34,410 nucleotides of DNA from Chloroflexota bacterium. GTDB taxonomy: Bacteria > Chloroflexota > Dehalococcoidia > UBA2979. This document shows positions 8,561 to 33,724 of this stretch, one piece after another. Where the stretch lies: contig VXTU01000039.1 of assembly GCA_009837285.1 (NCBI GenBank), positions 1 through 34,410 on the forward strand. Reading direction: 5' to 3'. A program made the position numbers and the translations under genes. Under the pieces are notes generated by a model, which was given only the letters and a program-made list of their open reading frames with translations, did no database searches and was not told the DNA's origin. The number at the start of each line of letters is the position of its first letter. The stretch's first letter is position 1.

Positions 8561-9439
8561 GTGAGAGTACACCTCGACCGCTGGCGGGCGCTGGTGCGCG
8601 AGCGCCGCGAGCAGATGGACCGGCAGCTCGCCGCACTCGGCGGTCCGCCCGAGGACTGGTGGGCGGACCGCGCTTCGTTCTTCACGCGCGGCACCGGCGA
8701 CGCCGCAGCCTCGCCGCCGCCGGGTCTCGAGGCGATCGTGGAGCGCCTGGAGCGCCACCACACGCTCATCGACGTCGGCGCCGGGGCAGGGCGCTACGCC
8801 GTGCCGCTCGCCCGCGCGCTCCGGCACGTCACGCTCGTCGAGCCGTCGCCGGCGATGGGGCGGCTCGCCCGTGAGCAGCTCGACGGGGCCGGACTGGACA
8901 ACTGGACGCTCGTCGAGGATGGCTGGCTGGAGGCGAACGACCTCGATCCGGCGTCCGCGGTGCTGTTCGCGAACGTGCTCAATCCGCACGAGGACCTCGA
9001 GGCGTGGATCAGCAAGGGCCTTGCGCTGGCTCGGGGCTGGCTGTTCATCGTGCACGGCTCGATTCCGGAGGTGACGCCGCACATGCAGCGCGTCGCGCGC
9101 GAGCTCCACGGCGAAGAGCGCGTACCGCAGCCGGGCATCAGCCACCTCATCCCGGCACTCCACGACCTCGACGTCTATCCCGACGTCGTGATGTACGAGC
9201 GCCGCTTCGCGCGCTCGTACGCCGACGCTGGTGAGGCAGCCCGCGAGATCGCCTCGACACTGCTCATCGAGCCGACCGGGGAGGCGCTGTCGCGCATCCG
9301 CGCGATCGTCGAGCCGGACCTGCGGACGACGTCGGACGGCCGTGTCGCGCTGCCCGCGGTCACGGCGCCGCACGCGCTGCTGACGTGGCGCACTGCCGGG
9401 CGGGGCGATAGCCGCCGCTGGCGCTGGCTGCGAGACTAG
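8561..9439 (+). CDS. Class I SAM-dependent methyltransferase
   Basis: This 292-residue protein has the Rossmann-type methyltransferase motif I, LIDVGAGAGRYAVPLA (~69-84), followed by the acidic end of strand 2 in VTLVEPSPAM, and the motif IV strand AVLFANVLNPHEDLEAW. The last third (residues ~200-290) is less typical and includes a basic tail. The N-terminus is helical with DWWADRASFF, a feature of a family often annotated only as methyltransferase type 11/12. The target molecule is unknown. GTG at 8561 is the family-length start. It sits between a small effector-binding protein and a peroxiredoxin, with 24- and 20-base gaps, so co-transcription is likely. Confidence 0.78.
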   Translation: MRVHLDRWRALVRERREQMDRQLAALGGPPEDWWADRASFFTRGTGDAAASPPPGLEAIVERLERHHTLIDVGAGAGRYAVPLARALRHVTLVEPSPAMGRLAREQLDGAGLDNWTLVEDGWLEANDLDPASAVLFANVLNPHEDLEAWISKGLALARGWLFIVHGSIPEVTPHMQRVARELHGEERVPQPGISHLIPALHDLDVYPDVVMYERRFARSYADAGEAAREIASTLLIEPTGEALSRIRAIVEPDLRTTSDGRVALPAVTAPHALLTWRTAGRGDSRRWRWLRD

Positions 9440-12204: not shown

Positions 12205-12560
12205 GGGGACGAAAGGGGTCGACAGCGGTACACGGACACGGTTTGCGGGTCGAGGCGCCACCAACCTCGTAAAACCGGTGGCACCTTCATAACAGGCGAT
12301 AAAGAACTCGCCCTCGCCGCTTAACAGGCGGTGACGTTGTCCCCGGCTCACGCCTGGCGAGCTGGGAGACGGCGCCGAAATGCCGGGCTGCAATTGCGGG
12401 CGCGCGTCTCAGGCCTCGCAACCAAGACTACTGGGACTGGCCGGCAGTCTCCCTCGTCGGCGCAGGGATGCCGGTAAGAACCCGCCGCCGACTACGCCCG
12501 TAGCAGATCCGTGACGGAGGCTTGCTGGACGGGGAGTTCAATTCTCCCCCGTCTCCACCA
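12205..12560 (+). ncRNA. ssrA: Transfer-messenger RNA (tmRNA)
   Basis: The ends pair as a tRNA-like acceptor stem: GGGGACG at 12205-12211 with CGTCTCC at 12550-12556, followed by ACCA. The 3' part has a T-arm (GGGGAGTTCAATTCTCCCC). The 5' part carries GGGGTCGACAGCGG, typical of the D-loop region. The tag reading frame is GGC GAT AAA GAA CTC GCC CTC GCC GCT TAA at 12295-12324, encoding GDKELALAA. ALAA is the standard ClpXP/ClpAP degron end. The resume codon is Gly (GGC), not the common Ala (GCN). Position right after smpB supports the call. Confidence 0.95.
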
Positions 12561-18901: not shown

Positions 18902-20461
18902 CTAGTTGAGGCGCCAGAGCTCGGCTTCGGGGAAGAACAGGAACCACCCGAGCCAGAACGCGATGTGCCCGTTGACGCGCTCGAGGCGCTCCCCTTCGGG
19001 GCCGACGAGCGCCTCCTCGGTCACGGTCCACTCCGCGCCGTCCTCGTCGAGGACGGTGTCGGGCTCCGGGCCGGGCGAGAACGTGTTGCGCCCCCGTTCG
19101 AAGGAACGGATCTCGCCGCCGTAGTCGTAGTTCGGCCACGGGATGCGCACCAGGATGTCCTCGACGTCGGCGAGGCCGCGCTGCGCCACCAGCACGATGG
19201 GTGAGCCGGCGAACTCGTCGTTGAGGACCTGCTCCTGCACGAGATCGTCGATGACCCATGCCTTGCGGATCCCGCCCAGGCGAAGCCCGTAGACGCGCTC
19301 CTTCGGGTGCAGCTCGTCGCTGCGCTGGAAGGCGGGGAAGCGGACCTCGTCCGTGCGGAAGTAGTCGCCGTAGGGCTGGCCGAACACCTCGTAGACGCGG
19401 TCGTGGCCGGTCTTCACGTCCAGCACCTCGGTCTCCGGGTGCTGCTCCAGCCAGTCGCGCCACGAGGTGGTCACCACGGGTAGCAGGTTGAGTTGCACGG
19501 CGTCCGGGTCGGCGGCGAGCGAGCCGATCACCGGCTTGCCGGTGAACTGGTTCCACAGCGACCGCGTAGTGCGGTCGTACATCAGCTTGTTGGTGCGGTA
19601 GAGCAGGCCCGAGGTGCCGAAGACGTAGGTGTTGCCGTCGGGTGCGCGCCCGTCGTACGCGATCGCGGCGCCGCAGAGCGTGCAGTACGCGAGTGAGACC
19701 GGGACGCCGCCGACGACGTCGTTCGACAGCTCGTGCCAGTCCATGAGGCGCACCGGGTACGCCATGGCCTCGCCGTTGAGGGCGATGCCGAAGACGGGCT
19801 CGTTGGGGTCGAGGTACGTCGCCTCCTCGGGGCTCAGCCGGGCGGGGTTGTCGAGCGACGGGATGCCGTCCACGCGCACGCCGCCCCACAGCACCTCCTC
19901 GACGCGGATGGTCGTGGGGGCGTCGGCGTACAGGAATCCCGCGAAGAGCGGGTCGATGCGCGACATGAGCTCGCCCTTCCACGCGGTGAAGCCGGGCGGC
20001 GGCTCCAGGTCGGTGCCGGCGTACCACTCGAACCACCCGAACCAGTGCGGCCCGAGGTCGACGCCCGACATGGCGACAAGCGCATCCTGGATGACGTTGA
20101 GGGACTCGATGCCCTGCACGCCCCGGTGGAAGCTGGCGCGGATGATCTCGATGAAGGGCGCGATGAACCGGTAGTCCCGGGCCTCAATAATGCGCTCGAC
20201 CGTCGAGACCGTGAGTTCGAGGTTGGGGCCCGCCTCGAGCAGGTTCTCAAGCAGCTGCCGCGCCTCGGCGTCCGGGGTTGGGGGCGTCGGCGTTGGCTCG
20301 GGCGTCGCGACGGCCGTTGCTTCCACCGGCTCCTCGGCCGGTTCGTCATCGGTGCAGGCCCCGACGAGCAGCAGCGCGAACGCGAGGGAGGCGAGGACCA
20401 CGTGCTGCCACGACGAGACTGTGCGGTGGCGCGCGGGCGCCCCGCCGGATGGTGCGCGCAC
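18902..20461 (-). CDS. DUF3179 domain lipoprotein
   Basis: This ~519-residue protein begins with a basic stretch, a hydrophobic helix (VVLASLAFALLLVGA) and the lipobox LVGAC (Cys36), then a Thr/Pro linker (EATAVATPEPTPTPPTP). It should be a surface lipoprotein. The DUF3179 region covers the latter two thirds: DGIPSLDNP, EPVFGIALNGEAMAYP, VSLAYCTLCGAAIAYD, FGTSGLLYRTNKLMYD and SLWNQFTGKPVIG. The paired Cys in YCTLCGAA is a family hallmark, but no reaction is known. GTG 20461 is preferred because AGGAG lies five bases upstream; TTG 20482 has nothing comparable. It is separated from the MaoC pair by 96 bases with no clear promoter. Confidence 0.85.
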   Translation of the reverse strand: MRAPSGGAPARHRTVSSWQHVVLASLAFALLLVGACTDDEPAEEPVEATAVATPEPTPTPPTPDAEARQLLENLLEAGPNLELTVSTVERIIEARDYRFIAPFIEIIRASFHRGVQGIESLNVIQDALVAMSGVDLGPHWFGWFEWYAGTDLEPPPGFTAWKGELMSRIDPLFAGFLYADAPTTIRVEEVLWGGVRVDGIPSLDNPARLSPEEATYLDPNEPVFGIALNGEAMAYPVRLMDWHELSNDVVGGVPVSLAYCTLCGAAIAYDGRAPDGNTYVFGTSGLLYRTNKLMYDRTTRSLWNQFTGKPVIGSLAADPDAVQLNLLPVVTTSWRDWLEQHPETEVLDVKTGHDRVYEVFGQPYGDYFRTDEVRFPAFQRSDELHPKERVYGLRLGGIRKAWVIDDLVQEQVLNDEFAGSPIVLVAQRGLADVEDILVRIPWPNYDYGGEIRSFERGRNTFSPGPEPDTVLDEDGAEWTVTEEALVGPEGERLERVNGHIAFWLGWFLFFPEAELWRLN

Positions 20462-20544
20462 AGGCGCTCCTCTCGGGAGCAAGGTGGCAGCGGGTGCGCT
20501 ACCAGCCTATCACCCCGTGCGGCTCTGACCCGCCGCAACCAGTG

Positions 20545-30785: not shown

Positions 30786-31304
30786 CTAGTCGATGAGCGC
30801 CGAGATCACCTCGTCGATGACGGCGTCAGCCTTCTCGTAGAGTTCCTCGTCCGTCGCATCCTGGATGGGGTGGTCGACGAACGCGCGCGCCATGGCGGGC
30901 AGGCCCAGTGAGCCGGCCTGCGCCTCAGCCGCGTCGACGAACTCGTCGGAGGCCATCATCACCGAGGGGATGCCCTGAATCTCGAACCAGACCGTGTCGT
31001 GCACACTGCACGTCGTGCACGAGCCTCAGTCGGCGAGGGCTTCGATGACGAAGTCCACCTCCTCCATCATCTTGCGCCGTAGCTCGTCCGGCGCCGGCTT
31101 GGCGAAGGTCGGCTTCATGTAGCGCTTCACCGTCACCTCGGGCACGCGCTCGTTCAGCAGCGACTCGATGCGGTCGAGCAGAACGTTCCCGCGCGGCTTG
31201 CTGATGTCGAGCAGGCCGACGGTGCCCGTGATGTGCTCGGGACGCTTCGTGAGTTGCCTCCCGATCGGTTCCCGTTCGTCTGTCGGGTCAAGAATCGTCG
31301 TCAT
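30786..31304 (-). CDS. UGSC family selenoprotein (in-frame TGA read as selenocysteine)
   Basis: Read through one TGA, this is a 172-residue protein: the first 92 codons, TGA at 31028-31026 as residue 93, then 79 more residues in the same frame. The junction reads ALAD-U-GSCTTCSVHD, exactly the U-G-S-C motif that names the UGSC (seleno)protein family. Conserved flanks are TVGLLDISKPRGNVLLD before it and WFEIQGIPSVMMASDEF and AGSLGLP after it. The redox residues would be Sec93, Cys96 and Cys99. A perfect hairpin begins three bases after the TGA (SECIS-like, separate entry). The start ATG overlaps the stop of the upstream thioredoxin-fusion gene by four bases, so the pair is co-translated. Function is unknown; a redox role with the thioredoxin domain next door is a reasonable inference. 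selABCD are not in the window. Confidence 0.88.
30997..31022 (-). promoter_or_regulatory. SECIS-like hairpin just after the in-frame TGA
   Basis: On the minus strand TCGTGCAC (31022-31015) pairs perfectly with GTGCACGA (31004-30997) around the loop GACGTGCAGT. The stem starts three bases after the TGA and the loop is centred ~16-18 bases from it, about where bacterial SECIS apical loops lie. The loop contains GU. It lies inside the coding sequence, as bacterial SECIS elements do. Confidence 0.6.
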
Positions 31305-32875
31305 ACGACCTCCTCGATCTTCCTGCTATCCAGCCCGCTCGCCCAGCCCGGGAAGATCGAGGTGAACTTCCCGGCGCCGCTGCCGGCGATCACGATGTGG
31401 ATGTTATCGGGTGACTGGAACTTTGGTATGAGCTCCTCGAGCTGCTCCTCGCTCGGCCCGTCCGGCCCGAAGCTCTCGGGCGGGATGCCCGCGCCCGCTC
31501 GCTCGTCGATCAGGAGCTCGCGCACCGGTCGGTGGGTGAGCTCCCAGAGCCGCCGCTGGAGGTCGGCCCGCGTCCAGCCGTCCCGGCCGATGGTGTCGAC
31601 GTGCTCGGGGCAGAGCACCATCAAGATCTCACCCGACCTCGATCGGGGGTGACTGATCGCCTGCAACGACATCGCGAGGCTGCCCGCGAGCGCCTCGGCG
31701 GTGCGAGAGGTCTGGTCGACGCACACCAGCGGCCCCGGGGACGCGGGGAACACCGAGACCACGCTCTCGGCGGCCTCGTACCCGTGCTTGACGTGGAACG
31801 GCTCCCAGGGGCTGCGCTCTTCGCGTTCGGCGAACGCGAGCGTGAACTTCGCGGGCGACCCGAGCATGGAGCGCTCCGTGCCGCCCGGCTTCGCCCCGCC
31901 CACGTTACGCAGCACGAGGCGGACGGCCCGTCCGATCGTCGCGTTCGCGCGGTTGCCCTGGCCGAGCGCGCCGAGTCCGGAGTTCATCCCGATGCGGTCG
32001 CGGATCGGCCCGTTCACGATGACGGCCGGCGAGGCGCCCATGGTGGTCGCCATCACGCCGTGCGCGTTGAATTGCTCCGTACACACCGCCTCGACCGCGG
32101 CGATCACGACGGGCAGGTACTCGGGCTTGCAGCCGGCGAGGACCGCGTTGATGGCGATCTTCTCGACCGTCGCCTCACCCATGTTGGGCGGAACGATGGC
32201 GACCACGTCCTGCGCGTCGCGACGGCTGCCGGCCAGCATGCGCATCACGCGCTCCGGGCTGGGCGCCACCACGGGCAAGCCGTCGGTGAAGCCCTGGTCG
32301 AACATGAACTCGTCGACATCGTCCGCGCTGCCGACCTCGATGCGCCGTGCTCGGAGCGGGCTTCCCTCGGCTTCCGCCGCGAGTCGCTCGGCGATGCCGG
32401 GCTCGAGCGTGCGCGAACCGCAACCGGGCTGCGACAAGGGGTAGCGCTCCCAGTCGACGTCGCCTGAGTCGGCATCCGAAAGGTCGGCGAGCCGGCCGTA
32501 AAGCGCGCGCCAGTCCTCGCGGCCGAAGCCGACGAAGCGGTCGACCTCGGCGCCGTCGCGGTCGGTGAGGATCACGGTCGGCACGGTCTCGAGGTCGTAG
32601 CGGTACGAGACGCCGAGCTCCGAGTCGTCGAGGAGTGGCAGTGTCAGGTCGTGCCGTTCGACGAGGATCGCGTTGCCCTCGGCCTCCTGGCCGATCGCCA
32701 GCACGTCGACGGCCGCGCCGAAGGCGCGGTGCGCGCCCTCGATGAGCGGCATCGAGGTGCCGCACGTGGGACAGTCCTCCTTGACGAAGGCGAGCAGCGC
32801 CGGGCGACCGGTCGGGAACGCGCGCTCCTCGCTGCGCTGGTCGAGCAACGCGAAGCCAGGCAGCTCGCTCACCAT
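31301..32875 (-). CDS. Thioredoxin-like domain fused to a large conserved domain, partner of the UGSC selenoprotein
   Basis: This 524-residue protein starts with a thioredoxin/TlpA-like domain (~1-150) with active site EDCPTCGTS (Cys35, Cys38), a cis-Pro strand TVPTVILTDRDG and no signal peptide. The rest (~175-524) is a conserved domain with the segments FTDGLPVVAPSPERVMRML, VPPNMGEATVEKIAINAV, AGCKPEYLPVVIAAVEAV, NSGLGALGQGNRANATIGRA and SPWEPFHVKHGYE. I recall this domain beside UGSC genes in Actinobacteria and marine Chloroflexi, but know no reaction for it. AAGGAG precedes the ATG. The stop overlaps the UGSC start, which implies a common pathway; the Trx domain could reduce the Sec/Cys centre. 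Confidence 0.8.
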   Translation of the reverse strand: MVSELPGFALLDQRSEERAFPTGRPALLAFVKEDCPTCGTSMPLIEGAHRAFGAAVDVLAIGQEAEGNAILVERHDLTLPLLDDSELGVSYRYDLETVPTVILTDRDGAEVDRFVGFGREDWRALYGRLADLSDADSGDVDWERYPLSQPGCGSRTLEPGIAERLAAEAEGSPLRARRIEVGSADDVDEFMFDQGFTDGLPVVAPSPERVMRMLAGSRRDAQDVVAIVPPNMGEATVEKIAINAVLAGCKPEYLPVVIAAVEAVCTEQFNAHGVMATTMGASPAVIVNGPIRDRIGMNSGLGALGQGNRANATIGRAVRLVLRNVGGAKPGGTERSMLGSPAKFTLAFAEREERSPWEPFHVKHGYEAAESVVSVFPASPGPLVCVDQTSRTAEALAGSLAMSLQAISHPRSRSGEILMVLCPEHVDTIGRDGWTRADLQRRLWELTHRPVRELLIDERAGAGIPPESFGPDGPSEEQLEELIPKFQSPDNIHIVIAGSGAGKFTSIFPGWASGLDSRKIEEVV

Positions 32876-32948: not shown

Positions 32949-33353
32949 TCAGGTGCGCGCATCAAGGCGGTCGAGCCGCCCGGGCCAGTCGAGGAGCCGC
33001 TCGTCGGCGGTGAGGAGCCGGCAGCCGGGGACCGTGATGGCGGTGGCGGTGATGATTCGGTCCCCGGGGTCGCCGTGCATGTCGGGGAGCACGCCCGACC
33101 TTGCCGCGATGTCCCCCCGAACCGGTACCTCGATGAGACCATCCGTCAGGAGCTCGAAGCGCCAGCTTTCTACATCAATGTCCACTTCAAGGCGTCCCTT
33201 GGCGACGAGTAGCCCGACCTCCCAGAACGTGATTGTTGAGACCGCAGCATCGCCATCAGCCCAGGCGTGGCCGAGGAGCCGGCGAGCCCTCGATCCAAGC
33301 CTGGGTGAGCCGAGGCGCAGCCACAGCAGGACGTGGGTGTCGAGCAGGATCAC
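32949..33353 (-). CDS. vapC: VapC-type PIN-domain toxin (ribonuclease)
   Basis: This 134-residue PIN-domain protein carries the acidic active-site residues in order: Asp5 in MILLDTHVLLW, Glu in ISTITFWEVGLL-like STITFWEVG, and Asp pair in MHGDPGDRIITATA, followed by LLTADERLLDW. These bind Mg2+ and cut RNA, usually tRNA or rRNA. The GTG start overlaps the antitoxin stop by four bases (GTGA), giving translational coupling. Confidence 0.92.
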   Translation of the reverse strand: MILLDTHVLLWLRLGSPRLGSRARRLLGHAWADGDAAVSTITFWEVGLLVAKGRLEVDIDVESWRFELLTDGLIEVPVRGDIAARSGVLPDMHGDPGDRIITATAITVPGCRLLTADERLLDWPGRLDRLDART

Positions 33354-33661
33354 CCTGACTGCCGCAGGTCGGGATTGAGCACGCGGTCCGGATCCGCGAG
33401 GACGTCAATCTCCGCCTCGTCCATGGGACTGATGATGTCACCAAGGATGCGTATGCGGCCCTTGTCCGCGCCCCACGGCGCCTTACGCGGCTGCTGGTAC
33501 GCGATGAGCTTTGCGATGGGCTCGCCGTTCTTGGTGATCACGATCTCCTCCCCCGTCTCCGCCACCTCGTCCATGAGTTTCAGGCACCTCGCCTTGAACT
33601 CCGAGGCCTTGATGATCTGGCCCGTGGTGTACACACCCCGGAGGTCACTCAGCCCTGGCAT
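33350..33661 (-). CDS. Phd/YefM-family antitoxin
   Basis: This 103-residue protein has the Phd/YefM pattern: an N-terminal DNA-binding part with IIKASEFKARCLKLMDEVAE and the strand-turn EEIVITKNGEPIAKLIAYQ. The acidic C-terminal tail would wrap the VapC toxin. ATG 33661 with GGGAGG upstream is preferred; a longer frame to 33724 would run through the operator palindrome. It is the first gene of the vapBC operon. Confidence 0.9.
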   Translation of the reverse strand: MPGLSDLRGVYTTGQIIKASEFKARCLKLMDEVAETGEEIVITKNGEPIAKLIAYQQPRKAPWGADKGRIRILGDIISPMDEAEIDVLADPDRVLNPDLRQSG

Positions 33662-33680
33662 GACCGCCCGCCTCCCTTGT

Positions 33681-33706
33681 ATGACTATAGTCAGGACTAT
33701 AGTCAT
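33681..33706 (-). promoter_or_regulatory. 26-bp perfect palindrome: vapBC operator
   Basis: ATGACTATAGTC (33681-33692) is followed by AG and its exact reverse complement GACTATAGTCAT (33695-33706). Each half contains the 10-bp palindrome GACTATAGTC, so two nested sites 12 bases apart (about one helical turn) can bind two antitoxin dimers. It overlaps the promoter -10 box and lies 20 bases before the ATG. Confidence 0.8.
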
Positions 33707-33724
33707 CATCTTACTCGTCCGCAA
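33696..33724 (-). promoter_or_regulatory. vapBC promoter
   Basis: On the minus strand TTGCGG (33724-33719) and TATAGT (33701-33696) are separated by 17 bases. The -10 box lies inside the operator palindrome, which fits autorepression. A second TATAGT occurs one turn downstream (33689-33684). Confidence 0.6.

Follow-up and report, generated by a model that had tools for sequence, protein, structure and literature searches.

Does the TGA at positions 31028-31026, on the minus strand of contig VXTU01000039.1, end a gene or encode an amino acid within one, and, if the latter, what might the resulting protein do? The contig, analysed over its full 34,410 nucleotides (the window), belongs to a 2.4-Mb draft genome of a Chloroflexota bacterium that is 90.5% complete and divided among 153 contigs. 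The two minus-strand frames 31304-31026 and 31025-30786 are, as a preliminary description of this DNA had stated, in the same phase and separated by nothing except that TGA. When the TGA is read as selenocysteine (Sec, U), they become one frame of 172 residues (30786..31304; start codon ATG 31304-31302, stop codon TAG 30788-30786) with the junction LADUGSCTTC (EALAD-U-GSC-TTC). The UGSC motif occupies residues 93-96 of the joined protein, with U93 at the TGA itself (31026..31028) and, at 31017..31019, Cys96, which holds the second position of UxxC and is presumed to be the resolving cysteine.

The further claim that family sequence lies on both sides of this motif was confirmed by profile searches, in which the joined protein cleared both curated cut-offs, with 164.3 bits for NF041046 (UGSC_fam), where 125 are required, and 167.2 bits for PF24696, where 25 suffice. 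Less exact was the expectation that standard gene calling would yield two unrelated hypothetical proteins: the upstream half alone, at 63.9 bits, still exceeds the PF24696 cut-off, although at 61.3 bits it falls below that of NF041046, and the active site is lost. Ordinary gene calling does, then, split this selenoprotein gene; the reading as two separate genes was rejected. Its sequence places the gene in the UGSC family as a new member. This family, described by Zhang and Gladyshev in 2008 (PMC2398784), ranked fifth by number among the selenoprotein families of the Global Ocean Sampling data, with 255 sequences (PMC2398784), and neither that paper nor PMC13188914 reports a function for it. 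With the family the gene shares scores above both cut-offs, the UGSC motif, the position of the Sec and a marine-type host, and nothing sets it apart from an ordinary member. A scan for promoters and terminators found nothing, and there was no match among phage records. Some other Chloroflexota genomes (G149, G164, G339 and others) contain 7-9 UGSC paralogues, several of them fused to longer frames.

A single scan of 84,980 species genomes retrieved 80 UGSC loci, 63-97% identical, from Chloroflexota and Alpha- and Gammaproteobacteria, and every one of the 80 has TGA at exactly the Sec codon and no further in-frame stop. Codon differences from the closest relative (L025) are of the kind expected of a translated protein on both sides of the TGA, with 12 synonymous and 3 non-synonymous changes after it and 16 and 2 before it. 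Among 400 genomes sampled from the phylum, 42 matched the UGSC profile; nearly all matches contain a single internal TGA, and a few lack it. The three congeners that carry a UGSC gene have the TGA as well. In six distant plasmid homologues the codon is replaced by one for cysteine, and across the homologues this position is TGA or cysteine only, never tryptophan. The preliminary description would have been undone by close relatives with some other sense codon or with additional stops; only Sec or cysteine and no extra stops were found. At the sequence level, the TGA thus behaves as a sense codon under constraint.

Just 3′ of the TGA lies a hairpin with a G in its apical loop, as expected of a bacterial selenocysteine insertion sequence (SECIS; 30998..31012, minus strand), consisting of a 5-bp stem (31012-31008 with 31002-30998) and the pentaloop AGUGU (31007-31003). 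In 80 or 81 of 81 genes the codons at +5 to +7, counted from the TGA, read ACG TGC AGT, even though they encode residues with 4-, 2- and 6-fold degeneracy, and mean codon conservation is 0.78 at +1 to +11 versus 0.53 elsewhere. Across 47 distinct sequences, divergent paralogues included, 97% of stem cells are paired, compared with a mean of 83% and a maximum of 89% when the arms were dealt anew (2000 trials) and at most 60% when the partner arm was slid. The innermost stem pairs swap between C-G and G-C, and the GU at loop places 2-3 is retained in 46 of the 47. None of the six cysteine homologues has the loop GU (0/6), though the stem may persist; stem and loop are both present in a homologue with TGA from an Acidovorax plasmid. 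Folded as a single sequence, the stretch of 52 bases that begins with the TGA is not unusual (z −0.48), and raw folding energies across the relatives are likewise weak (mean z −0.76), so that the evidence for a SECIS, drawn as it is from aligned sequences, is covariation together with codon conservation, folding energy alone not being diagnostic. The Acidovorax gene lies at 8640-9149 of p2-T1 (NZ_CP021650.1), a conjugative IncP plasmid of Acidovorax sp. T1, and its annotation shows nothing but a short hypothetical protein ending at the TGA (CCX87_RS20235).

Insertion of Sec had been made contingent on finding selA, selB, selC and selD in the same genome. Profile matches above cut-offs were obtained for selA (537 bits), selB (298 bits) and selD (363 bits), the last with an in-frame TGA of its own, in CGGUAGK. 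The Rfam search of the genome for tRNA-Sec returned only ordinary tRNAs, below the cut-off, and selC is absent from the vicinity of selA, selB and selD. All three congeners have intact tRNA-Sec genes (74-77 bits, anticodon TCA), and a DNA search with a congener's tRNA-Sec found a match over 41 of 41 bases exactly where contig C148 ends (L163:1-41), corresponding to the first 41 bases of the gene, that is, its 5′ half and the anticodon TCA. By this match selC is present but cut by the contig end, which is why profile searches miss it. The machinery is therefore represented by three complete matches and one fragment that includes the anticodon.

Because the TGA is constrained, the SECIS hairpin is conserved and the genome has the machinery, the TGA is almost certainly decoded as Sec. 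A stop in the middle of a known domain does look like a pseudogene, and a draft in 153 contigs could hold an assembly error, in which case there would be a truncated 92-residue protein or no product; yet the recurrence of TGA at this codon in all 80 independent assemblies, protein-like substitutions downstream of it, SECIS covariation and the machinery itself leave a nonsense mutation, pseudogene or assembly error with a negligible chance, and sequencing error, like the reading as two separate genes, was rejected on the same grounds. Equally hard to credit is decoding as another amino acid, such as tryptophan through a code change or suppression: the frame is indeed open through the TGA, but the partner gene described below and other genes of the window terminate in TGA, cysteine and never tryptophan replaces it in homologues, precisely these homologues lack the SECIS loop, and the genome has selA, selB, selD and part of a tRNA-Sec gene with the anticodon UCA. 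A code change was accordingly rejected, TGA serving as a stop in the window and cysteine rather than tryptophan taking its place elsewhere.

Directly upstream of UGSC is a gene of 524 residues (31301..32875, minus strand), here called the partner, whose last 4 bases (ATGA, 31304-31301) are shared with the start of UGSC. Its N-terminal domain (32471..32875) is thioredoxin-like, of the ResA/TlpA type, with a CPTC motif at residues 35-38 (32773-32762); unlike a plain ResA/TlpA-type thioredoxin, the partner has no apparent membrane anchor or signal peptide and is fused to an unnamed C-terminal domain of about 340 residues (31304..32323), for which no Pfam or NCBIfam model was matched. The partner lies directly upstream of UGSC in 75 of the 80 relatives, with spacing from a 1-base overlap to 151 bases. 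The C-terminal domain adjoins or is fused to UGSC in most relatives, and among the more divergent UGSC loci the majority have a relative of it beside UGSC, on either side, with or without the thioredoxin domain; in one locus (L143) it is fused to UGSC. The 2008 paper (PMC2398784) already describes UGSC fused with an unknown domain. Immediately 5′ of the partner gene stand a PIN-domain toxin and a Phd/YefM-type antitoxin (32949-33724, minus strand), which overlap by 4 bases.

Six plasmid loci of the cysteine form have readable annotation, a small sample for which no count was set against chance. At three of the six (Roseovarius, Arthrobacter and Variovorax), trxB or trxB-trxA is found near the UGSC-partner pair. 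Other genes near the cysteine forms encode parts of tripartite ATP-independent periplasmic (TRAP), ATP-binding cassette (ABC) or tricarboxylate transporters, coenzyme A (CoA)-transferases, acyl-CoA dehydrogenases and LysR/IclR regulators; the transporters, CoA-transferases and regulators suggest that an organic acid or some similar compound is catabolised.

GrdB and PrdB (PF07355) are the substrate-binding selenoproteins of glycine and D-proline reductase. When a profile built from a diverse UGSC alignment was compared with one of eight GrdB/PrdB-type sequences from related genomes, the match had a probability of 93.4% (E 2.6e-7), with Sec aligned on Sec; the probability was 85% with all cysteine and Sec positions masked and 83% without true GrdB, and reversed and column-shuffled decoys gave less than 1%. 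A control comparison of GrdB/PrdB with the partner's thioredoxin domain reached 42%, driven by CxxC, so that matches of about 42% are meaningless here; the UGSC match is well above this. With close UGSC relatives only, the comparison gave 30.7%. UGSC has the Sec-bearing unit of strand, UxxC/S, helix and strand seen in GrdB/PrdB, in which Sec closes a beta-strand, xxC or xxS comes next, and a helix and a G-I-P strand complete the unit, and a dependence on thioredoxin, a further likeness, is suggested by the neighbouring genes. UGSC differs in being a single short domain, and PF07355 matches neither it nor any protein of the genome, the similarity being one of profile to profile only; it would work like GrdB/PrdB without being a member. 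In related genomes (L172, L174-L179) there are single-domain PrdB-like genes with an in-frame TGA (UxxC), several per genome (G011), and another genome of the same class has a complete-looking glycine reductase cluster (L188:4434-9165) with GrdE, GrdB with Sec, a GrdC-like gene and GrdA with Sec.

We consider it likely that a Sec-decoded UGSC protein acts with the partner as a thioredoxin-dependent, GrdB/PrdB-like reductase of a small molecule, of which UGSC is most likely one subunit; that UGSC and the upstream gene form a single enzyme is a narrower claim, which we favour by a modest degree. Residue 93 and Cys96 are the only strictly invariant positions in the diverse UGSC alignment (n = 37), and we therefore infer that U93 and C96 form a redox pair. 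One could envision U93, placed where beta-strand 3 of a flavodoxin-like domain ends, attacking a small-molecule substrate as the selenolate, after which Cys96 would close a selenenylsulfide with U93. The partner's CPTC thioredoxin domain, or free TrxA/TrxB in relatives of the cysteine type, would reduce this bond again; reduction of UGSC by thioredoxin is suggested by the thioredoxin domain fused within the partner and by the trxB/trxA neighbours. Binding or activation of the substrate would fall to the unnamed partner domain, making the partner the putative substrate subunit.

The best surviving alternative, though an unlikely one, is that the selenoprotein is a general thioredoxin-fold redox protein that reduces disulfides or peroxides and has no dedicated small-molecule substrate. 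A thioredoxin-like fold is assumed for UGSC in the papers of 2008 and 2026 (PMC2398784, PMC13188914), UxxC resembles thioredoxin motifs, and there is a thioredoxin domain next door. However, the AlphaFold2 model (pLDDT, the predicted local distance difference test, 92) has five alternating strand-helix repeats, with Sec just after strand 3, and not the thioredoxin order of elements; its best matches among solved structures of the Protein Data Bank (Foldseek) are flavodoxin-like, namely a flavodiiron core and an azoreductase, with template modelling (TM) scores of about 0.5. Neither the modelled topology nor the Foldseek matches are those of a thioredoxin fold, and a search of solved structures by the UGSC sequence gave no match. 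The fold is thus predicted to be flavodoxin-like rather than thioredoxin-like, in departure from the fold assumed in PMC2398784 and PMC13188914. In addition, the UGSC profile does not match that of the partner's thioredoxin domain (0.5%), in contrast to its strong match with GrdB/PrdB, and the setting of the cysteine forms among transporter and CoA-transferase genes argues against a general redox role.

Still less probable is a role as electron acceptor or carrier in metal or xenobiotic detoxification, in which Sec would bind a metal or metalloid and not act as a catalytic nucleophile: the 2026 review (PMC13188914) raises metal binding as a possibility for several uncharacterised selenoproteins, but no metal-resistance genes stand beside the loci read, and the homology is to reductases.

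Several observations count against a Sec-decoded, GrdB/PrdB-like reductase working with this partner. No solved structure gives more than a modest TM-score (about 0.5), and the match between UGSC and GrdB/PrdB spans only 73 columns. At 5 of the 80 loci there is no partner in the stretch examined, and in 10 of the 69 relatives with a readable motif the second cysteine of CPTC is T or S. The partner domain has no detectable relation to GrdE (0.5% and 0.2%) or GrdC (0.5% and 0.2%), nor was a pyruvoyl subunit of the GrdE/PrdA type recognised in the partner, so that neither pyruvoyl nor acetyl-phosphate chemistry is implied. Finally, selC is incomplete in this assembly, where it survives as a fragment only.

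Elsewhere in the window, a DUF3179 protein (18902-20482, minus strand) is of the cysteine form, with CTLC, in a family that also has selenoprotein members, and a transfer-messenger RNA gene (12205-12560, plus strand) encodes the tag GDKELALAA.

The link to GrdB/PrdB, the thioredoxin neighbours (trxB/trxA) and the constant partner domain are useful additions to what was known of the UGSC family. Combined with the predicted fold, they yield a testable hypothesis of a thioredoxin-dependent reductase with a defined partner. More tentatively, UGSC and the unnamed partner domain may constitute an unrecognised two-component, thioredoxin-dependent reductase related to GrdB/PrdB, with Sec and cysteine versions widespread in aquatic bacteria and haloarchaea, which would carry GrdB/PrdB-like reductive cleavage of a small molecule beyond the classic amino-acid fermenters.
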